NCBI GenBank assembly: GCA_025361065.1
Contig: JANYAY010000056.1
Location: 1-40,772, forward strand
Length of the DNA stretch: 40,772 nt
Reading direction: 5' to 3'
From: Deltaproteobacteria bacterium
Lineage (GTDB): Bacteria > Desulfobacterota > Syntrophia > Syntrophales > Smithellaceae
The position numbers and the translations under genes were made by a program. Shown piece by piece: positions 9,968 to 35,922 of this stretch (its first letter is position 1; each line of letters starts with the position of its first letter). The notes under the pieces were generated by a model, which saw only the letters and a list, made by a program, of their open reading frames with translations, did not search any database and was not told the DNA's origin.

Positions 9968-11386
9968 ATGGGAAAAACTGCTCACCTCAATTATAATTTT
10001 TATAAGGGCATGGCGCTGATTGCTGATCCTATTCATCAGTATGCCTTTTTTACCGTTCCGCAAGATAACGACGCCAAAGAAACAACGGAAAAAGACCTGA
10101 TTGATTCTCCCTGGTTGCAAAGGTTAAGACGGATTTACCAGTTGCAGAGTGCCCGCTGGGTTTATCCGGCGGCGGAGCACTCCCGTTTCCAGCATTCCTT
10201 AGGAACAATGCATGTAGCCGGTGAATTTGCCAAGCACCTTTATCCCAGTTTGTGTGATGTTTGCCACGATACTCCTTCTTTAAATTACATCGAAGAGTTG
10301 ATGCGTCTTGCCGGATTATTGCACGATGTGGGGCATGGGCCATACGGGCACTTCTTTGATGAACATTATTTGAGCAATTGGGGATTAACTCATGAATTAA
10401 TCGGCCAGCATATTATCATTAAGAAACTCGGGAGGACTATATCACGCATCAAACGCAGCCCCGCCGGTGCTTTTACGGACAGAGAAATTTTAGATCCGGG
10501 GCAAATAGCCTTTTTGATAAAAGTGCCGGAAGCTGAAGAAGAAAATCAGCCGCGCTGGCTGCATTTGCTGCGGCAGCTTTTTTCCGGCATTTATACGGTG
10601 GATAATCTGGACTACGTCCAGCGCGACGCCTACATGACCGGATTTTCGCTCGACATGGTCGATATCCCCCGCCTGCGTTATTATACTTTTTTCACCAATG
10701 AAGGTATTACCCTGCATCAATCGGGCATATCCGCAATGGGGCGATTTCTCAATGCCCGCTTAAACCTTTATAGCAATGTTTATTTTCACCGGACAACACG
10801 CGCCCTGGATTTGCACTTGCAGGAAATATTCCACGATACAATGACACTGATCTTACCCGGCAATCCGTTGAAAAATCTGGAGGGCTACCAGAACTGCGAC
10901 GAATGGTCTTTGTTCAATGAAGTGCAAAGCTGGCTTACGGCAAAAGATGCAACAAAAAGAAAGTTGGCCGGCGAGTGGAAAAAGCTTTATGACCGGAAAG
11001 TAAAATGGAAGATGTCGTTTTCTACGGAAATTTCCGTAGCTCAGATTCATCGTGGTACGGGCTTTTCTTCGGCGAAAGATTACGAAGTAAAAATCAGAGA
11101 GCGTCTGCCGGCAAAGCTAAAAGGGATTTCTTTTAAAGTTGATCTGGCAACCCAGGACCCGCGGCCACTCAATCCAATGGCCGAATCGGGCAAAAGAGTC
11201 AATATTTTTAACCCGGTTACGGGCATTACATCGCAGGAACCCCTGGAGGAAATATATCGTTTTATTCCGGCCAGGGTCATGCATTTCCGGGTGTTTGCCT
11301 TAAACCATGATTATGATGAAGTACTCTCTTTTGCTGCGGAAAATGCACTAAATGCGCAAGAGACGGCAATGCCGACGAATGTTTGA
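9968..11386 (+). CDS. HD-domain phosphohydrolase (dGTPase/SAMHD1-like, COG1078 type)
   Basis: A roughly 473-residue cytoplasmic protein. Near the N-terminus is I-A-D-P-I-H, then S-P-W-L-Q-R-L-R-R-I-Y-Q-L, then H-S-R-F-Q-H-S-L-G, L-L-H-D-V-G-H-G-P-Y-G-H and a later V-D-N-L-D-Y-V-Q-R-D. These provide the metal-binding H...HD...D of the HD superfamily in the arrangement of SAMHD1-like dNTP triphosphohydrolases. The start is uncertain: ATG at 9968 is chosen, a TTG at 9902 and an ATG at 10010 are alternatives, and none has a good Shine-Dalgarno sequence. Its 3' end overlaps the nrdD-like gene, so a shared role in nucleotide pools is plausible. Confidence 0.8.
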   Translation: MGKTAHLNYNFYKGMALIADPIHQYAFFTVPQDNDAKETTEKDLIDSPWLQRLRRIYQLQSARWVYPAAEHSRFQHSLGTMHVAGEFAKHLYPSLCDVCHDTPSLNYIEELMRLAGLLHDVGHGPYGHFFDEHYLSNWGLTHELIGQHIIIKKLGRTISRIKRSPAGAFTDREILDPGQIAFLIKVPEAEEENQPRWLHLLRQLFSGIYTVDNLDYVQRDAYMTGFSLDMVDIPRLRYYTFFTNEGITLHQSGISAMGRFLNARLNLYSNVYFHRTTRALDLHLQEIFHDTMTLILPGNPLKNLEGYQNCDEWSLFNEVQSWLTAKDATKRKLAGEWKKLYDRKVKWKMSFSTEISVAQIHRGTGFSSAKDYEVKIRERLPAKLKGISFKVDLATQDPRPLNPMAESGKRVNIFNPVTGITSQEPLEEIYRFIPARVMHFRVFALNHDYDEVLSFAAENALNAQETAMPTNV

Positions 11387-13460
11387 TATGGTTGAAAATC
11401 CTGAAACAACAGACTTAACTCTTTTTGTCCGCACTTCCGGCGAAGAGATCGCCCGCTGGAACCGCCAGCGCATTGTAGATGCGTTGGTGCGTGAAGCGGA
11501 GATCGACTACTTGCTGGCTGAGGAAATATCAAAGGAAGTGGAGAAACAGATTTTCTCTTCCAGTATCGGAATACTCACAACTGCCCTGATCCGTGAACTG
11601 GTTAATGCCAGACTCATTGAAAGAGGACTGGAAAAAGAACGCCGGCTCCACGGTAGACTTGGGTTTCCGCTTTATGATGTTCGCCAATTGATCCTGCATC
11701 AAAATAAGGAAAATGCTAATATCCCTCATTCTCCCGAAGGCACAAATCTTCTTTTTGCCGAAGGTATTAAAAAGGAATTTTCTCTCTACGATGTCTTCTC
11801 GCCGGATATAGGCGAAGCGCATGCCGCCGGCGACATACATATTCACGGGTTGGGTTACATTGATCGTCCTTACAGTTGCTGCCAATCTTTGGAATATCTG
11901 AAAAAAAATGGATTAAAGTTACCGCAGGCGATCAATTCTGCGAAACCCGCCAAGCATGCGGAAGTATTGCTGGCTCATATGGTACGTTTCAGTGCAATCC
12001 TGCAGGGGCATTTTACCGGGACAATAAGCTGGGATGCACTGAACATTTCTTTTGCACCTTACCTGGGAGAAATGACCGATAAAGAAGTACGGCAGTTTGC
12101 CCAAATGCTGATCTATGAATTTTCACAACTGGCTGCCACACGCGGTGGTCAGGCCCTTTATACGGATATTCATCTTTACTGTGAAGTTCCGGACCACTGG
12201 GCAGGACTTCCCGCCATAGGTTCCGGTGGGAAACTTACCGGGAAGAATTATGGTGACTATGCTCCAGATGCGATACGTTTTGCCCGGGCTATAATGGAAG
12301 TGTTCAAAAAAGGTGATGCGACCGGGAAGCCATTCATCTTACCGCGGCCACTATTGCATATAACGGAATCTTTTTTGCAGATGAAATCCTCTTTAGAACT
12401 TTTACGGCTGGCCTGTGAAGTGGCGAGCTGTAAAGGGAATATGTGTTTTGTGTTTGATCGCGATGAAGATGCCCGCTCTTTTGTCTGTTGTAAGGCTGGT
12501 TGTGATGATAGCACCGGTTGCAATTGGGAATTGGAAAAGCCCTGGCTGCTGCGCACCGCAGCTATCCAGAGTGTCACCTTAAATTTACCGCGCATCGCTT
12601 ATAAGGCTGGGGGAGATGAGAAGATTTTGTGGGGTCTGCTTCAGGAATTTACCGCAAACGCCGTGAAGGCGCATATTCAGAAAAAAGACTTTTTGGAGAA
12701 ACTTCTGTCCTATGCCGATCAGGGGCCACTGGCTGTGCTGGCGATGAACAATGACGGTTTCCCCTATTTGAGAATGAACCGGGCATTTTACATTGTCGGT
12801 ATTGTCGGGTTGAACGAGCTGGTTCAAATCCATCTGGGCAAACAATTACATGAAGCGCCGGAAGCGCTGGATTTTGGTCTGAATGTTGTGAAGTATTTGC
12901 AAAATGAAATCAAGCACTGGAGCATCGATGCGGCTATGAAATTTGTATTGGAGCAGTCACCGGCGGAAACTACGACTTACCGTTTTGCCAGACTGGATTT
13001 AAAATATCATTCTCCTGCTGCCGGTCGCTATGTGAAGGGCAATATTTCCGAAGGGGCAATTTATTACACCAACTCCACACACCTGAATGTTGCAGCGGAG
13101 ATTGCGCCTTTGCAAAGAGTAATTCAGGAAGGTTTTTTCCACAAGTACCTGGAAGGAGAGATTATCACGCATTTGCAACTGGGCAGCTCTAATCCTGATA
13201 AAGAAGAACTCTGCCAGTTTGTAAAAGATGCATTTTATAAATCAGCCAATCGCCAGATTGATTTTACACCGGAATTTACTTCCTGTGCCGCATGCGGCAA
13301 AACTGCGCCGGGGTTAAATGAGAAGTGTATATATTGCGGATCAACCGAAATAGAGGGCATAGCGCGACTTACCAAATACTACAGCAAAACATCCGGTTGG
13401 AACAAAGGAAAGCTGGCAGAGCTAAAAAACAGAAAAGTAAATGTGATTTTTAATCAGTAA
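11379..13460 (+). CDS. nrdD: NrdD-like anaerobic ribonucleoside-triphosphate reductase lacking the radical glycine
   Basis: A 693-residue homologue of class III ribonucleotide reductase. It begins with an ATP-cone (about 14-100). The core has G-D-I-H-I-H-G-L-G-Y with C-C nearby, the finger-loop region with F-V-C-C and Q-S-V-T-L-N-L-P-R, and a C-terminal zinc site (C-A-A-C ... C-I-Y-C). The C-terminal motif, normally R-x-T-G-Y-Y ... W-N-x-G-K, reads R-L-T-K-Y-Y ... W-N-K-G-K, so lysine (codon 13374-13376) stands where the radical glycine should be. No nrdG activase is present in the window. ATG 11379 overlaps the HD gene by 8 bases; ATG 11388 and ATG 11352 are alternatives. Membership is clear; catalytic competence is doubtful. 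Confidence 0.85.
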   Translation: MFDMVENPETTDLTLFVRTSGEEIARWNRQRIVDALVREAEIDYLLAEEISKEVEKQIFSSSIGILTTALIRELVNARLIERGLEKERRLHGRLGFPLYDVRQLILHQNKENANIPHSPEGTNLLFAEGIKKEFSLYDVFSPDIGEAHAAGDIHIHGLGYIDRPYSCCQSLEYLKKNGLKLPQAINSAKPAKHAEVLLAHMVRFSAILQGHFTGTISWDALNISFAPYLGEMTDKEVRQFAQMLIYEFSQLAATRGGQALYTDIHLYCEVPDHWAGLPAIGSGGKLTGKNYGDYAPDAIRFARAIMEVFKKGDATGKPFILPRPLLHITESFLQMKSSLELLRLACEVASCKGNMCFVFDRDEDARSFVCCKAGCDDSTGCNWELEKPWLLRTAAIQSVTLNLPRIAYKAGGDEKILWGLLQEFTANAVKAHIQKKDFLEKLLSYADQGPLAVLAMNNDGFPYLRMNRAFYIVGIVGLNELVQIHLGKQLHEAPEALDFGLNVVKYLQNEIKHWSIDAAMKFVLEQSPAETTTYRFARLDLKYHSPAAGRYVKGNISEGAIYYTNSTHLNVAAEIAPLQRVIQEGFFHKYLEGEIITHLQLGSSNPDKEELCQFVKDAFYKSANRQIDFTPEFTSCAACGKTAPGLNEKCIYCGSTEIEGIARLTKYYSKTSGWNKGKLAELKNRKVNVIFNQ

Positions 13461-28864: not shown

Positions 28865-30058
28865 ATGATACTTTCTAATTTAGATACTTCCAGAGTTGCA
28901 ATTATCGGTCCTGGTCGGCTAGGCACTTCTTTTGCCTATAAACTTGGCCGTGATAATAAAAGGGTTGCTATTTATTACCATGATTCTGAAGTTTGTAAAG
29001 CAATAAACAGAGATCATCTAAACCCTATTCATTTAACCGAAGATTTAGCCAAACGGTTGGGCGGAATGGAAAATGTGCCGCGGCTTTCGCCTAAATTATA
29101 TGCAACCAACGATTTGGAACACATCATCGAAAATAACGATTTCATTATCTTGGCCATAACAATGAACCGGCTACCGGAACTGCTCAATTACCTCAAGCCG
29201 ATGCTTGCCAAAAAGGCAGGTGATACATGTCTTATTTCTCCGATTAAAGGTTTGATTTCCGATGAAATCTCCAAAGGATTGATTACACCCTCGCAACTGA
29301 TCAACAACAGCCTTTATAAAATAAAGCATAAATACGATGTTGTCTGTATCGGAGGCCCTTTTTTTGATGTGGATATCGCCTTGGGCAATCCTGTCTGTGT
29401 CACCATTGCCGGTAAAAGACGCATTGCCGGTATTATTCGCGATGATTTGTTTAAATTTAATCGCAAAGAATTAAATTCATATTATAATTTTGACGTTGTC
29501 GGCGTCGAGGCCTGTGGCGCTCTGAAAAATATTGTGGCTAATATTAAAGGACTGGCCGATTCGCTGGAATTGGGCGATTCCATTCCCGGGACCATATTTG
29601 CCCGTTCCGGAGTGGAAATCCGCTCGCTGTCGCGCCTCTTAGGTGGAAGTTTTCAGGCTTTTCACAGTCAGGCCGGCGTAGGTGATATGTATGTTACTGT
29701 GTCTTCCATGGCCAGCAAGAATTACCGCTATGGAAAATATTTTTATGAACTTTATACAGGTAATCCCATTGAAACCAACTTGCGTGTCTTAGAAAAGATT
29801 GATGGAACACCGGAAGGTCCTAATACCGTCAGGAACGTTTATAAGTATTTAGAGAAAAAAAATATGTATAGTCCGCTTTTTTCCTGTGCCCATCATATAT
29901 TTAACACCGCAGAAAACAAAAGCGCGATTAAAGACTTGATAATCCAGGCCTGTCAGTATGATAAAAGGACACAGGAATATATTGGTCCTTTCTCCAGATT
30001 GATGTACCGCATTATTCCTGATTACTGGTATCGTCGGGATAAAGAATTTTTCTATTAA
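28865..30058 (+). CDS. NAD(P)-dependent glycerol-3-phosphate dehydrogenase-like protein
   Basis: A 397-residue protein of the GpsA type. The N-terminal nucleotide-binding domain has I-I-G-P-G-R-L-G-T-S-F-A, then S-P-I-K-G-L and G-G-P-F-F-D-V-D-I-A-L-G-N. The helical domain has G-V-E-A-C-G-A-L-K-N-I-V-A, with the catalytic lysine, and S-Q-A-G-V-G-D-M. GpsA makes glycerol 3-phosphate for phospholipids. It is about 60 residues longer than usual; the extra part is at the C-terminus (about 340-397, with several aromatic residues), and the nucleotide loop reads G-P-G-R-L-G rather than the common G-x-G-x-W-G. A related dehydrogenase with another substrate is possible. Its own promoter lies upstream. 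Confidence 0.8.
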   Translation: MILSNLDTSRVAIIGPGRLGTSFAYKLGRDNKRVAIYYHDSEVCKAINRDHLNPIHLTEDLAKRLGGMENVPRLSPKLYATNDLEHIIENNDFIILAITMNRLPELLNYLKPMLAKKAGDTCLISPIKGLISDEISKGLITPSQLINNSLYKIKHKYDVVCIGGPFFDVDIALGNPVCVTIAGKRRIAGIIRDDLFKFNRKELNSYYNFDVVGVEACGALKNIVANIKGLADSLELGDSIPGTIFARSGVEIRSLSRLLGGSFQAFHSQAGVGDMYVTVSSMASKNYRYGKYFYELYTGNPIETNLRVLEKIDGTPEGPNTVRNVYKYLEKKNMYSPLFSCAHHIFNTAENKSAIKDLIIQACQYDKRTQEYIGPFSRLMYRIIPDYWYRRDKEFFY

Positions 30059-30325: not shown

Positions 30326-31687
30326 ATGAAACAGGTCAAGGTGCTGCTGGAAGATCAGGAAATACCTAAACAATGGTATAATATTGTGGCAGATTTGCCC
30401 ACGCCCATGAGGCCACCGCTGCATCCCGGAACGGGCCAGCCGGTAACTCCTGATGATTTAGCGGCGATTTTTCCGATGAACATTATTGAACAGGAAGCCA
30501 GTGCTGAGCGCTGGATTGATATTCCGGAAGAAGTATTACAGAAGTATCTGCTCTGGAGGCCATCACCGCTTTACCGCGCTTATAATTTCGAAAAGCTTCT
30601 TAATTGTCCTGTTAAAATTTACTATAAAAATGAAGGCGTCAGCCCTGCCGGTTCACACAAGCCTAATGCCGCATTACCCATGGCCTATTTTAACAAGCAG
30701 GCCGGGACAAAGAGAATTGTTACCGAGACGGGCGCCGGACAATGGGGCAGCGCTCTGGCCATGTCTACACAGATGTTCGGCTTGGAATGCCGTGTTTACA
30801 TGGTTAGGGTTTCCTATGAGCAAAAGCCGTATCGTCGGATGCTGATGAATACCTGGGGTGCCGAATGCATCCCCAGCCCCAGCAGCCTGACCCAGGCCGG
30901 AAGAAATGTTTTGGCCGAACATCCCGATTCTCCCGGTAGTTTAGGAATTGCTATCAGCGAAGCAATTGAAGAAGCAGTAAATACTAAAGGTTCGCGCTAT
31001 GCTTTGGGCAGTGTTTTAAATCATGTTTTGCTTTATCAGACGATCATTGGCCTGGAAGCACAAAAACAAATGGATAAAATCGGCGTTTATCCTGATGTTG
31101 TTATGGGCTGTTGCGGCGGCGGCAGCAACTTCGCCGGTATTGCCCTGCCGTATGTTTGCGACAAGATTCACGGTAAGGATGTCAAGATAGTCGGGGCGGA
31201 ACCATCTTCCTGCCCCAGCATGACCAAAGGACCGTTTGCCTACGATTTTGGCGATTTAGCGAAATCAACGCCACTTCTTCCCATGTACACATTAGGTCAT
31301 GACTATATCCCGGCGCCAATTCATGCCGGTGGTCTGCGCTATCATGGTATGGCACCTATCGTCAGCCATCTGGTAAGAGAGAACATCATTGAAGCCAGAG
31401 CCTATGACCAGATGAAAACATTTGATGCCGGTGTCAAGTGGGCGCGTACGGAAGGTTTTGTACCGGCACCGGAGACAAATCATGTTATCGCGGCAGTTGT
31501 GGATGAGGCTCTCCGCGCAAAAGAGGAGGGCAAGGAAAAAGTCATTCTCTTCAACTGGAGCGGCCACGGTATGATTGATATGGCTGCCTATGACGCTTAT
31601 CTATCCGGTAAACTCGAGGCTTATGAGCTGCCTGATGAAGAAATAGAAAGGGCATTAAAAGCGATCAAGGATTTTCCGAAACCATAA
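30326..31687 (+). CDS. trpB2: TrpB2-type tryptophan synthase beta chain
   Basis: A 453-residue PLP enzyme of the TrpB2 (long beta chain) family. It has the family-specific N-terminal P-T-P-M-R-P-P-L-H-P region, the R-P-S-P-L-Y-R-A block, the PLP lysine in G-S-H-K-P-N-A, E-T-G-A-G-Q-W-G, and the phosphate-binding G-C-C-G-G-G-S-N-F-A-G loop. TrpB2 joins indole and serine to form tryptophan. ATG 30326 has AAAAGGAG at 30311-30318; an upstream in-frame ATG at 30257 lies inside the terminator hairpin and is not used. The Trp-codon leader and attenuator upstream show that tryptophan supply controls it. The classical trpB in the window is truncated, so this may be the working beta chain. Confidence 0.93.
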   Translation: MKQVKVLLEDQEIPKQWYNIVADLPTPMRPPLHPGTGQPVTPDDLAAIFPMNIIEQEASAERWIDIPEEVLQKYLLWRPSPLYRAYNFEKLLNCPVKIYYKNEGVSPAGSHKPNAALPMAYFNKQAGTKRIVTETGAGQWGSALAMSTQMFGLECRVYMVRVSYEQKPYRRMLMNTWGAECIPSPSSLTQAGRNVLAEHPDSPGSLGIAISEAIEEAVNTKGSRYALGSVLNHVLLYQTIIGLEAQKQMDKIGVYPDVVMGCCGGGSNFAGIALPYVCDKIHGKDVKIVGAEPSSCPSMTKGPFAYDFGDLAKSTPLLPMYTLGHDYIPAPIHAGGLRYHGMAPIVSHLVRENIIEARAYDQMKTFDAGVKWARTEGFVPAPETNHVIAAVVDEALRAKEEGKEKVILFNWSGHGMIDMAAYDAYLSGKLEAYELPDEEIERALKAIKDFPKP

Positions 31688-32047: not shown

Positions 32048-35002
32048 ATGAATTTCATCACCAGCCTTCTCCTTAAAACAATGGCGTTTATGTTCAACAT
32101 TCGTCCATCTCTGAAAAAATATTTAAGAACAACGGACGGCTGGATAAATTTCTCCGTAGGAATCAAACTTGAAAATGGAAAACTTGAACAGTCAATTACT
32201 TTCAGAAACGGCAAAGCGAGTGTTTCAGGGAAGATAGCACCCGATACTGACGTGGTAATGCGATTTGTGAACAAAGAAACTGTCAAGGAGATGCTGAAAA
32301 TCACCCCCAATGAAATGCTCGGCTTGATCCTCCACAACAAAATGGTCCTCGACGGGAATATCGCTTATCTCCAGCTGTTTAACTTTTATCTTTCGTTGCT
32401 CCTCGGAAAAAAGCACCAGAGGATGCTGGCAAAAAAAAATAAAGATGACTCCTCCTACCGTAAAAAAGAATATGCCACCGGCGGGCACGAAGCACGCGGC
32501 AGGGAAATCGCTGACAGAAATAAAAATAGATTAAAAGGTATGAGAACCGATGAGAATGTAAGATATCTTGAAGATCCTTATCTCTCCGAATATAGCATAG
32601 ATAATTTCCCGAGAATTAAAAAATTTCTAAATGATCACTTTACCTTAAAGCCGGCAATCTGCACGGAGCGTCCCCGTCTTCTGACTCAGTGGTTCCGGGA
32701 AAACGGATTTGAGTCCGATGCTGAAGGAATACTCTGGCAGCCCGAAATCAGAGCGGCTCTCGCCTACCGCTACCTGATGGAAAACAGGAAACCCATAATC
32801 CACAGTAATGACCTCATCGCCGGGACTTCAACATCGAAGGAACCTACCGGTGTCATTATTTATCCTGATGCGCAGGGTACCATGATCTGGGGAGAGCTCG
32901 GGTCAGTGGACAAGCGCGCCCTGAATCCATACACCATATCCGAAGAAGATGCGCTCGTGCTGCACGATATCTTCACTTTCTGGACAAAGAGGAATTTCAG
33001 GGAGTATGTCCGGAATAAATATAACAACCCTCTCTGCCTGTCGATCGATGAAAGATGGGTGTACTACTTTGTCTGGAAATCTGTCGGTATATCCCACACC
33101 ATACCTGATTTTCCGAAGTTACTGAACAAAGGGATCAACGGCATCATGGAAGAAATTGACTTGCGGCTGAAGGATGAGAAAAATACTGAAGCTAATACTA
33201 TTTCTTTAACGGCAATGAAAATAACACTCGAAGGAGTCATCGCCTACGCGAAAAACCTTGCCGGTGAAGCCTCTGTTCTCGCTTCTTCCGAAAAGAATCC
33301 GGTGAGAAAAAAAGAACTCGAGAGGCTCGTCGGAATATGCACGAAGGTGCCGGCGGGACCTTCGGAAACACTTGATGAAGCGGTTAACGCACTCTGGATC
33401 GTTTGGGTGGCCCTGCATATGGAAAATACCAACACGGGACTTTCCCTGGGAAGGCTCGATCAGTGGTTGCAACCTTATTTCGCGAAGGATATGGGAAATA
33501 TCAGCACTGAAAGCGAACGCAGAGAGTATATTGCACACGCGATTGAACTTGTCGCCTGCTTTTTTATGCGTGGCACCGATCATCTCCCGCTTGTGCCGGA
33601 TATCGGAAATTATCTTTTCGGCGGCAGTTCTTCAGACCAGGCGATCACCATTGGGGGTATGACCACTGAAGGCCAAGACGGTGTCAATGATATGACCTAT
33701 ATCATCCTCAAGGTCACCGAAATGCTTTCAATACGCGATCCCAACGTGAACGCGCGGTTCAGCATGGAAAAGAACAGTGACGCTTATCTGAAACGCCTCT
33801 GTGAGGTAAATTATATCACTGTCGCCACTCCGTCGATGCACAGCGACGAAAATGTTGCCGCATCTCTCGCCCCGCACGGCTATAAAATAGAAGATATCCG
33901 GGACTGGGCCGCCACCGGCTGCGTGGAGCCAACCCTCTGCGGCAGACACATGGGTCATACCGGTTCGATTCTGATGAACATGGTCGCGGCGTTCGAAATG
34001 GCGCTCAATAACGGTCGCCATCCCGCGATGGACTGGAACCTCGGACCATCTACCGGAAGCATTGAAAAAGGCAGCTTTTCCACCTTCGATGATTTTTTTT
34101 CCGCCTACGCCGCGCAGCAGGAATTTCTTATTGACCAGGCGGTCGAACTCAACAATCTGCTTGCCGAAGCTCATACCGTATTGAGGCCGACACCATTTCT
34201 CAGTTCCCTCATCGACGGCAGCATTGAAAAAGGGACAGATGTTACCAAAGGCGGGGCCAGGTACAATACTTCCGGCAGTTCGAATATCGGGCTTGCGGAT
34301 GTTACTGACTCACTCATGGTGATCAAAAAACTCGTTTTCGATGATAAAATAATTTCTTTTGCCGAACTGAAAAAGGCAGTCGACGCGAATTTTAACGGTT
34401 ATCCGAAAATTCTTGCTTTGGTGAAGAACAGGGTACCTATCTTCGGCTCAGGGAACATGGAATCACTCGCGCTTGCCAACAGGATAACTGAATTCATCCA
34501 CGGCTGTTACCATCGCCACACCAATTACCGCGGCGGAAAATACACGGCAGGATTCTGGTCCATGTCTCAGCATGTGGCGTACGGTTCGCTGTCGGGTGCC
34601 CTACCCTCTGGAAGGCTTGCGGGCAAAGCTTTCACACCCGGGCTCACACCGCAGCCTTCTGCTTCAAAAAACTTTCTCGATAACATCATGGATGTCGCGC
34701 GTCTCAATCCTCGGCACATGGATAACAATATCGCCTTTAACGTCAAGCTCATGCCGGGGCTTGCCGGCAAACGGGAAGGTACTATTGACTCAATGTGTTC
34801 GTATGTAAAAACATATTTTCAGCAGGGAGGCATGCAGATGCAGTTCAATGTCGTCACTTCGGAGGTACTTAAAGACGCGATGGCGCACCCGGAAAATTAT
34901 CGCAACCTTCTCGTGCGCATTTCGGGATACAACGCTTATTTCGTCACGCTGAACAGGGAGATGCAGATTGAACTCATCGAACGGACGGGATACGGAATTT
35001 GA
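32048..35002 (+). CDS. Glycyl-radical enzyme with an N-terminal SCP2-like lipid-binding domain
   Basis: A 984-residue protein. Residues about 30-120 resemble an SCP2/sterol-carrier domain (W-I-N-F-S-V-G-I, F-R-N-G-K-A-S-V-S-G, D-T-D-V-V-M-R-F, I-L-H-N-K-M-V-L-D-G-N). A charged linker (120-175) leads to a complete PFL-type glycyl-radical enzyme. The catalytic cysteine is Cys625 in T-G-C-V-E-P, with Glu627 two residues on as in C-x-E lyases/dehydratases, and the radical glycine is Gly960 in V-R-I-S-G-Y. The motif K-G-G-A-R-Y-N-T-S-G and the normal C-terminal loop are present. It should abstract hydrogen from a substrate bound near a hydrophobic carrier domain. The substrate is unknown. AAGGAG precedes ATG 32048; the activase follows with a 4-base overlap. 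Codon use (many CTC, GTC) differs from the neighbours. Confidence 0.9.
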   Translation: MNFITSLLLKTMAFMFNIRPSLKKYLRTTDGWINFSVGIKLENGKLEQSITFRNGKASVSGKIAPDTDVVMRFVNKETVKEMLKITPNEMLGLILHNKMVLDGNIAYLQLFNFYLSLLLGKKHQRMLAKKNKDDSSYRKKEYATGGHEARGREIADRNKNRLKGMRTDENVRYLEDPYLSEYSIDNFPRIKKFLNDHFTLKPAICTERPRLLTQWFRENGFESDAEGILWQPEIRAALAYRYLMENRKPIIHSNDLIAGTSTSKEPTGVIIYPDAQGTMIWGELGSVDKRALNPYTISEEDALVLHDIFTFWTKRNFREYVRNKYNNPLCLSIDERWVYYFVWKSVGISHTIPDFPKLLNKGINGIMEEIDLRLKDEKNTEANTISLTAMKITLEGVIAYAKNLAGEASVLASSEKNPVRKKELERLVGICTKVPAGPSETLDEAVNALWIVWVALHMENTNTGLSLGRLDQWLQPYFAKDMGNISTESERREYIAHAIELVACFFMRGTDHLPLVPDIGNYLFGGSSSDQAITIGGMTTEGQDGVNDMTYIILKVTEMLSIRDPNVNARFSMEKNSDAYLKRLCEVNYITVATPSMHSDENVAASLAPHGYKIEDIRDWAATGCVEPTLCGRHMGHTGSILMNMVAAFEMALNNGRHPAMDWNLGPSTGSIEKGSFSTFDDFFSAYAAQQEFLIDQAVELNNLLAEAHTVLRPTPFLSSLIDGSIEKGTDVTKGGARYNTSGSSNIGLADVTDSLMVIKKLVFDDKIISFAELKKAVDANFNGYPKILALVKNRVPIFGSGNMESLALANRITEFIHGCYHRHTNYRGGKYTAGFWSMSQHVAYGSLSGALPSGRLAGKAFTPGLTPQPSASKNFLDNIMDVARLNPRHMDNNIAFNVKLMPGLAGKREGTIDSMCSYVKTYFQQGGMQMQFNVVTSEVLKDAMAHPENYRNLLVRISGYNAYFVTLNREMQIELIERTGYGI

Positions 35003-35922
35003 GAGAAGAAAATTTGATCCTGGAAATAAAGGGTAATTCACTCGATGACGGTCCAGGGATCAGGACAGTCGTGTTCCTGAAGGGCTGCCCTCTTGCCTGT
35101 CTCTGGTGCCACAACCCGGAGGGCAGGAAACCGGGGCCGGAAATATCCTTTGATAAATCAAAATGTATCGACTGCGGTGCCTGTGTGGATATCTGTCCTT
35201 CAGGTGCGCTTTCCGGCAGTCACCGCTTTTTTATTGACCGTGAAAAATGCACGCTCTGTTTCCTCTGCGTTGATGCCTGCCCTTCAACAGCGCTCGGACG
35301 CGTCGGGCAGGCGATGACGGTATCCGAAATCACAAAAAAAGTTCTGCGCGATAAACCGTTTTTCGATAGTTCCGGCGGAGGCGTCACGCTCTCCGGCGGT
35401 GAACCGTCATTAAACATGGAGTTCGCAGCGGAACTTTTGGGGAATTTTAAACAGCACCATCTCCACACTCTTATTGAAACCTGCGGCTATTTTAATCATG
35501 GAAAATTTACGGCGCTCATTCTGCCATTTGTTGATGTCATTTACTATGACCTCAAACTCTTTGATGAAAAAGAACATAAGAAATATTGCGGGACGTCGAA
35601 CACCGTCATCATCGATAATTTCATCAAGCTTGCGGATATTGCGGATAATGCCGCCTGGCGCATCATTCCCCGTATTCCAATGATACCGGACATCACCGAC
35701 CGGGAAGATAATCTCAACGCTCTTGCGGATTTTCTGCAGCATAAAGCAAAACAGGTATCTCTCCTTCACTACAATCCATTGTGGCTCGATAAGAACAGTA
35801 AGATCGGCACAGATTTTGAGGTATCCGGCGACAGCAAAATGAAAGAGTGGATTAAACCGGAAAAGATAAAATTTTATGAATCGATTTTTATTAAAAAGGG
35901 AATTGAAGTAGTTTCCGCGTGA
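34999..35922 (+). CDS. Glycyl-radical enzyme activating enzyme (radical SAM)
   Basis: A 307-residue activase. The radical-SAM cluster motif is C-P-L-A-C-L-W-C (CX3CX2C) near residues 30-37, preceded by D-D-G-P-G-I-R-T-V-V-F. Two 4Fe-4S ferredoxin-type motifs (C-I-D-C-G-A-C-V-D-I-C-P and C-T-L-C-F-L-C-V-D-A-C-P) follow, then G-G-G-V-T-L-S-G-G-E-P. The extra clusters are typical of activases for dehydratase/decarboxylase-type glycyl-radical enzymes and absent in PFL activase. It starts with TTG at 34999 overlapping the TGA of the enzyme gene, so translation is coupled. It installs the radical on Gly960 of the partner. Confidence 0.93.
   Translation: MREENLILEIKGNSLDDGPGIRTVVFLKGCPLACLWCHNPEGRKPGPEISFDKSKCIDCGACVDICPSGALSGSHRFFIDREKCTLCFLCVDACPSTALGRVGQAMTVSEITKKVLRDKPFFDSSGGGVTLSGGEPSLNMEFAAELLGNFKQHHLHTLIETCGYFNHGKFTALILPFVDVIYYDLKLFDEKEHKKYCGTSNTVIIDNFIKLADIADNAAWRIIPRIPMIPDITDREDNLNALADFLQHKAKQVSLLHYNPLWLDKNSKIGTDFEVSGDSKMKEWIKPEKIKFYESIFIKKGIEVVSA

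Follow-up and report, generated by a model that had tools for sequence, protein, structure and literature searches.

A glycyl-radical enzyme with a predicted SCP2-like carrier domain from a member of the Smithellaceae

Glycyl-radical enzymes (GREs) are sensitive to oxygen and share a chemistry in which an activase generates a glycyl radical, this radical gives a thiyl radical on a cysteine and hydrogen abstraction follows. GREs with a Cys-x-Glu (CxE) motif are eliminating or decarboxylating enzymes. The substrates of the known eliminating GREs are small and polar; several of these enzymes work inside microcompartments, and the microcompartment GREs make small aldehydes. The SdsA1/Pisa1 alkylsulfatases act on amphiphiles and carry an SCP2-like domain. 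UbiJ combines an SCP2 domain of about 120 residues with a flexible region, and this domain has been proposed to hold the tails of ubiquinone intermediates (PMC9499169). The nearest GRE extensions that we found in the literature are encapsulation peptides and the N-terminal extension of the long-form CutC of GRM2, which has about 350 residues, is GRE-like, lacks catalytic residues and has a proposed role in encapsulation or assembly (PMC6325248). Here we describe a gene pair for a GRE and its activase in a 40,772-nucleotide stretch of DNA (the window) of a Deltaproteobacteria bacterium belonging to the Smithellaceae (GenBank: GCA_025361065.1, contig JANYAY010000056.1, positions 1 to 40,772 of the forward strand). 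The GRE carries an N-terminal domain with a predicted SCP2 fold.

We see about even chances that this enzyme belongs to a GRE clade that is so far undescribed and has amphiphilic lipids as its dedicated substrates. By its domains and catalytic residues the protein is a GRE, by sequence it falls into a separate subfamily, and its architecture is new, while its chemistry is a prediction. No description of a GRE with an SCP2 domain was among the papers listed by searches of the open-licence literature, and the author of the initial annotation of this locus, made from the sequence alone, knew of no characterised one. The novelty lies in the domain architecture and the phylogeny.

The enzyme and its front domain

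The GRE gene (32048..35002, + strand, as for all features of the pair) encodes 984 amino acids and has an ATG start with AAGGAG just upstream. Pfam finds the PFL-like domain (Pfam: PF02901) at residues 189-846 with an E-value of 1.8e-165 and the Gly_radical domain (Pfam: PF01228) at 863-966 with an E-value of 1e-23. The protein belongs to the GRE superfamily, with the PFL-like barrel, the Gly_radical domain, the catalytic Cys625 and the radical Gly960. The initial annotation had called the core complete, and the three residues are where it placed them: Cys625, the thiyl cysteine, and Glu627, the glutamate of CxE, in the GCVEP motif (Cys625-Val-Glu627, 33920..33928), and Gly960 in the RISGY motif (34925..34927). 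All three are unchanged across 15 aligned sequences. The claim of a cognate radical-SAM activase with a 4-base gene overlap holds as well. The activase gene (34999..35922, 307 amino acids, TTG start) overlaps the GRE stop by four bases (TTGA), and its product scores 287.5 bits with the general activase model TIGR02494 (cut-off 174.35) and below the cut-off of every NCBIfam activase equivalog. It has a CxxxCxxC motif at residue 30, plus two more Cys motifs.

The GRE divides at about the following borders. The SCP2-like domain covers approximately residues 1-120 (32048..32407), a low-confidence linker approximately 121-187 (32408..32608), and the core runs from residue 188 to the stop (32609..35002), as delimited by PF02901, PF01228 and the PDB matches. 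The linker is charged and helical or disordered and is likely a tether; in both models the ten-residue blocks between residues 121 and 180 have mean pLDDT values of 40-70.

According to its AlphaFold model, the front domain has the SCP2 fold. The model of residues 1-188, built from 20 sequences, reaches a pLDDT of 78-95 per ten-residue block over residues 1-110 and shows helices, four strands, two helices, a strand and a helix, in this order. In Foldseek at E ≤ 0.001 all 30 matches are SCP2 or alkylsulfatase-kind proteins, YjcS included, with the UbiJ SCP2 domain (E 6.3e-7) and Pisa1 on top. With VIA-align the best structural match is the C-terminal part of Pisa1 (PDB: 4av7) with a Z score of 13.7, followed by the SCP2 domain of MFE-2 (PDB: 1ikt) with 13.0 and a root-mean-square deviation of 2.4 over 110 residues, and UbiJ with 11.7. 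The first differently named rows are cyclopropane fatty acid synthase with 8.6 and Eis acetyltransferases with 6.9.

The initial annotation had likened the N-terminal 120 or so residues to SCP2, and besides the predicted fold the profile matches of the relatives agree with this. SCP2 matches at E ≤ 0.1 were found in the N-termini of 13 out of 20 relatives, with 3.1e-5 as the best E-value. In a second Pfam set of ten proteins, some of which are shared with the 20 relatives and one of which is a molybdenum enzyme, two were above the SCP2 cut-off (22.1 and 24.4 bits) and three matched below it. Aligned by hhalign with seven SCP2 domains of the window's own genome, a profile of the fusion N-termini gave a probability of 59%, and of 80% after stand-alone proteins were added. 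SCP2 is absent from the Pfam scan of the full 984-residue GRE at E ≤ 1, and an SCP2 search of the own genome (E ≤ 0.001) found eight other places, with the GRE front domain not among them. The N-terminal domains of the relatives are 28-44% identical to that of the window, compared with 45-60% for the whole protein.

A weak SCP2-like N-terminus, with 18-22 bits against the N-domain profile that includes the stand-alone proteins (A3), was also seen in a pyrogallol-hydroxytransferase-like molybdopterin enzyme of about 1000 residues at the loci L097 (8219-11308), L243 (5205-8174), L244 (5629-8631) and L245 (2711-5668). The enzyme was identified by Pfam for L097 and by BLAST for the other three. 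It is perhaps a second anaerobic redox enzyme with an SCP2-like carrier.

A clade of fused and split relatives

The core does not group tightly with a characterised family, which supports the initial annotation: its NCBIfam equivalog scores fall below half of their cut-offs and it lies in a separate clade in the tree. The best PDB sequence matches of the GRE start at residue 167 or later, with glycerol dehydratase (PDB: 1r8w) on top with 386 bits in phmmer. For NCBIfam, the PFL2-3 subfamily model comes to 507 of the required 678 bits and no cut-off is reached by the core. Every equivalog score listed is less than half of its cut-off, namely those for CutC (411 of 1050 bits), HypD (430 of 1100), HpsG (385 of 1000), HpfG (362 of 1000), PRK09983, the indoleacetate and hydroxyphenylacetate decarboxylases and PFL. 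One alternative is that the enzyme activates hydrocarbons by adding them to fumarate, in the manner of alkylsuccinate or benzylsuccinate synthases, with a lipid carrier attached. Among the carriers of the fusion are sediment and subsurface Desulfobacterota and Smithella relatives, alkylsuccinate synthases of Smithella are known, and a limonene GRE is described as fumarate-adding in the same source (PMC12583861). Among the PDB chains, MasD and TutD score 211 and 181 bits, well below the dehydratase, whereas 8iof, which is labelled as benzylsuccinate synthase alpha subunit, lies in between with 311 bits. No recurrent small-subunit gene was found beside the GRE among the open reading frames (ORFs) of at least 80 amino acids, a weak negative since shorter ORFs were not called. 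We regard a fumarate-adding enzyme as very improbable.

Besides the fusions, the N-domain profiles match stand-alone genes of about 150 residues. There are 20 such genes above 60 bits, of which 17 lie directly behind a GRE core, two behind GRE remnants and one with an activase only. Among the 17, one is cut by the contig edge, one has a GRE broken by a stop codon and in one (L219) a stop interrupts the SCP2-like gene. The 20 loci are not 20 independent events, as several share a genus or family. Three weaker matches below 60 bits (L229, L230 and L232) have no adjacent GRE and are outside the 20, and L231 (58.6 bits), which lies at the edge of its contig, is a fusion. Further stand-alone matches outside the 20 are strong in G272 and G299 (genus of L222) and short and weak in G282:C44, G355:C85 and G377:C32. 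The GRE linkage of the split genes strengthens the interpretation given in the initial annotation, which had proposed a role on a hydrophobic or amphiphilic substrate.

We built a tree with FastTree only, in which long branches are flagged, from 89 GREs: 39 fused rows (38 loci, picked from a larger set), 14 split rows and 36 others. The fused L104 is included although its N-domain is in another frame, the second GRE of L183 is counted among the others, and E. coli PflB is not in the selection. Left out were the split loci L095 (contig edge), L220, L223 and L226 (no GRE or a remnant), L227 (GRE broken by a stop codon) and L234 (which shares its genus with L222 and L233). Fused and split GREs form one clade with a support of 100, inside which the fused rows are one subclade, again with 100. 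The split rows fall outside this subclade and have a support of 73 as one group. All 36 other GREs are outside the clade, including a CutC above its cut-off (L255), E. coli PflD and YbiW, and four GREs of the own genome. The scores of the core hidden Markov model separate the two sets, with at least 724.9 for the clade and at most 572.1 for the others. Trp837 in the GFWSMS motif (34556..34558), which aligns with GLYPSS of glycerol dehydratase, occurs in all 53 clade members and in none of the 36 others, and Lys344 and Ser349 are each present in 53 of 53 versus 1 of 36. By this phylogeny the window GRE belongs to a clade and is not a single odd gene. A single fusion event would be enough for the sample in the tree, which fits both a pairing before fusion and a fission into split genes.

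Relatives occur in many anaerobic bacteria. Within the family of the window, 43 of 51 genomes have a GRE match of some kind, and 20 further matches span the GRE from its first ten residues to the end with 46-60% identity. The N-domain profile matches in 29 of the 155 genomes of the order and a wider profile in 51 genomes out of a phylum sample of 395, counts which include stand-alone genes, molybdenum enzymes and other SCP2 proteins. A scan of a genome collection by core patterns gave 240 relatives. The best 80 of them were kept. In each, the match begins among the first 20 residues and extends at least to residue 954, and because of this start they all include the front domain. Their titles are mostly Deltaproteobacteria or Desulfobacterota, together with metagenome-assembled genomes (MAGs) labelled as Spirochaetes, Actinomycetota, Chloroflexi, Myxococcota and Phycisphaerae, where labels may err.

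Two further arrangements were seen. A MAG titled Desulfobacterium sp. has a tandem pair of fusion GREs (L134, 7608-13551), and at L104 (8345-11402), where N-domain and GRE core are in different frames, the copy is either broken or truly split.

Gene neighbourhoods and the proposed reaction

Neighbourhoods were counted at 92 loci, of which L176 has no GRE ORF, leaving 91; two contigs enter the count twice, one as L098/L110 and one as L099/L109. TetR was found in the same-strand gene chain at 43 loci, the activase at 55, an extended short-chain dehydrogenase/reductase (SDR) at 10 and a classical SDR at 9, all of which are lower bounds because many contigs end nearby. In a cluster of four loci (inspected for L178) both SDRs are joined in one protein. 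The extended SDR is nearest to HpnA and OleD, far below their cut-offs. The classical SDR recalls 3-ketosphinganine reductase, but with 136 bits against a cut-off of 400 and a score below those of generic SDR models we rejected a sphingolipid reading.

The split-GRE loci have partners of their own, namely a DUF6765-type protein at 10 of 20, a protein of mostly about 800 residues at 11 of 20 (no Pfam match, as checked on L216) and a papain-type peptidase at 4 of 20. Islands with such genes were seen at L093, L096, L215-L219 and L221, among others. DUF6765 as a zinc phospholipase C was considered, since the H-x3-D-x3-H motif is shared, but hhalign gave a probability of 13% and there was no PDB match, and we do not claim it. 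The window copy has neither the DUF6765-type nor the 800-residue partner. Its own neighbours, a G3P-dehydrogenase-like gene (28865-30058) and a TrpB-like gene (30326-31687), do not recur in the gene chains of the relatives and are not counted as parts of the system. Elsewhere in the window, an ORF at 11352-13460 resembles, by eye, anaerobic ribonucleoside-triphosphate reductase, which is also a glycyl-radical protein.

At L179 (1959-12257), and at this locus only, a TetR-activase-DUF362-GRE operon is flanked by genes for an alkyl sulfatase of the SdsA type and a SPASM radical-SAM protein. The DUF362 protein between activase and GRE is 53% identical to one on contig 171 of the own genome, where a classical SDR at most 52% identical to the operon SDRs is followed by this DUF362 protein, a split transketolase and an SCP2 protein. 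Contig 156 has a second transketolase-SCP2 set, followed by a protein which weakly matches the extended SDR (63 bits). Such sets of N- and C-terminal transketolase genes with a two-domain SCP2-like protein are found at L246 (1744-6696, contig 171), L309 (4185-7867, contig 156), L248, L306 and L307, and look like a separate SCP2-dependent pathway. On contig 154 of the own genome (L283, 6175-14074), a GRE without SCP2 adjoins a classical SDR, an extended SDR and a related TetR, in the vicinity of an FGGY kinase, CoA transferase subunits and an acyl-CoA dehydrogenase, named by eye.

Also named by eye, a glycerol kinase was found near the GRE at 8 loci, an aldehyde:ferredoxin oxidoreductase at 8 and an acyl-CoA ligase at 12. 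These are mostly clade synteny and carry no weight, because seven loci share one order of unrelated genes. Outside this group, L113 has the aldehyde:ferredoxin oxidoreductase as its next gene. A further alternative is that the enzyme uses an acyl chain or acyl-CoA, like the SCP2 domains of MFE-2, with SDRs of the beta-oxidation type. This would suit the place of 1ikt among the best structural matches, the two other SCP2 domains of the own genome which lie in SDR/thiolase-type proteins or clusters (named by eye) and the acyl-CoA-ligase-like cluster in the flanks of 12 of the 91 loci. However, seven of those 12 are the synteny group, and known CxE GREs use hydroxylated or amino substrates, which leaves an acyl-CoA substrate improbable.

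For the favoured amphiphilic lipid, the mechanism would run as follows. The activase would put the radical on Gly960, from where it would pass to Cys625. The SCP2 domain on its tether of about 65 residues would take the hydrophobic tail of the lipid from a membrane or micelle and bring the polar head into the barrel. Cys625 would abstract a hydrogen and Glu627 would assist a 1,2-elimination of the dehydratase or lyase type on a hydroxylated head group. The carbonyl product could then be handled by the SDR pair beside some relatives and, in the own genome, possibly by the SDR, transketolase and SCP2 clusters elsewhere. That the SCP2 domain would hold the hydrophobic part of the substrate is suggested by SdsA1-type alkylsulfatases and by the UbiJ proposal (PMC9499169). 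By analogy with these proteins we infer a tethered SCP2 domain that presents an amphiphilic lipid to an eliminating GRE. In favour of this reading are the predicted fold, the profile matches of the family, the split genes behind GREs, the single clade, the recurring TetR, activase and SDR neighbours, the SDR and DUF362 resemblances in the own genome, and its lack of a shell protein, in contrast to microcompartment GREs. A hydroxylated lipid head is hinted at by genes for SDRs, transketolase and DUF362 that belong to related operons or to the own genome, and the enzyme probably serves to break down membrane-type lipids anaerobically.

More specifically, and tentatively, the enzyme may be a radical lipid-head-group eliminase, in which SCP2 presents a polyol-headed membrane lipid such as a glycerol ether, a glycolipid or a hopanoid polyol, and the core dehydrates or cleaves the head. 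If so, it would form, with the SDR, transketolase-SCP2 and DUF362 clusters, an undescribed anaerobic route that dismantles non-hydrolysable lipids in sediments. A role in making hopanoids is unlikely, as 4 of the 155 genomes in the order have an HpnH above its cut-off and none of these is among the 29 with an N-domain match, while breakdown of foreign hopanoids is compatible with the data.

Several observations weigh against a dedication to amphiphilic lipids. Pfam SCP2 on residues 1-175 of the window enzyme alone gives a match at 36-112 with an E-value of 0.038 and 14.8 bits, below the cut-off of 21.3. Five proteins of the second set have no SCP2 match at E ≤ 1, two of which weakly match DUF7884. 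In the comparison with PF02036 proposed in the initial annotation, the window sequence stays under the gathering score and two relatives exceed it; since the match is sub-threshold on the window sequence, Pfam cannot decide the SCP2 resemblance there, and the relatives settle it. A PDB sequence search with A3 gave nothing significant: an SCP2 chain (E 0.65) ranked after a designed protein (0.055). The full-length AlphaFold model has a mean pLDDT of 72.9 with active-site loops below 50 and the pocket unmodelled. The SDRs are in the gene chain of only 10 and 9 loci and reach no specific NCBIfam cut-off, SDRs, TetR and DUF362 are large families, and the window copy lacks both TetR and SDR partners. 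Lastly, the faster variation of the N-terminal domain also fits a loosely constrained accessory role.

In such a role the SCP2-like domain would do no more than anchor the enzyme to a membrane, dock the activase or mediate oligomerisation, and the core would act on a small polar substrate. Besides the fast evolution of the front domain, the core catalytic motifs resemble those of diol and glycerol dehydratases, and several GREs carry N-terminal extensions that are thought to serve packaging or assembly (PMC6325248). Against this stand the complete carrier fold predicted for the front domain, its occurrence in other members of the clade as a gene of its own that follows the GRE, and the own genome, which has no shell protein for docking. 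We consider an anchor or dock possible but rather doubtful.

Comparison with known systems

A GRE clade that keeps a lipid carrier across anaerobes, either in the same protein or encoded by a partner gene, would bring lipids within the reach of glycyl-radical elimination and offer an entry to the question of the oxygen-free breakdown of membrane lipids, ether lipids included. The clade is easily searchable by the SCP2 domain together with Trp837 in a GFWSMS-type motif, and the split form lets the carrier be added or omitted in vitro.

The closest structures, glycerol dehydratase 1r8w and diol dehydratase 5i2a, resemble the window GRE in the barrel, in Cys-Val-Glu and in the His of G-x-x-H. As for differences, GLYPSS of 1r8w corresponds to GFWSMS and its His-Ser pair, which aligns with 463-464, to Thr-Gly, and the matched 787-residue chain of 1r8w does not cover the front domain. 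CutC, HypD, HpsG and HpfG have the superfamily and the catalytic logic in common with the window GRE, while the CutC of L255 has Asp where the clade has His350. The long-form CutC of GRM2 also has a large N-terminal extension, in place of which the window enzyme has a predicted SCP2 fold. The BMC shell domain (Pfam: PF00936), looked for as a mark of GRE microcompartments (GRMs), has no match in the own genome, which is 97% complete, with 2 of 14 control genomes positive. UbiJ is an accessory protein without a fused catalytic core, unlike the window GRE. SdsA1 and Pisa1 are metallo-beta-lactamase-type hydrolases without radical chemistry, in which the matched domain is C-terminal, in contrast to the N-terminal carrier predicted for the window GRE.

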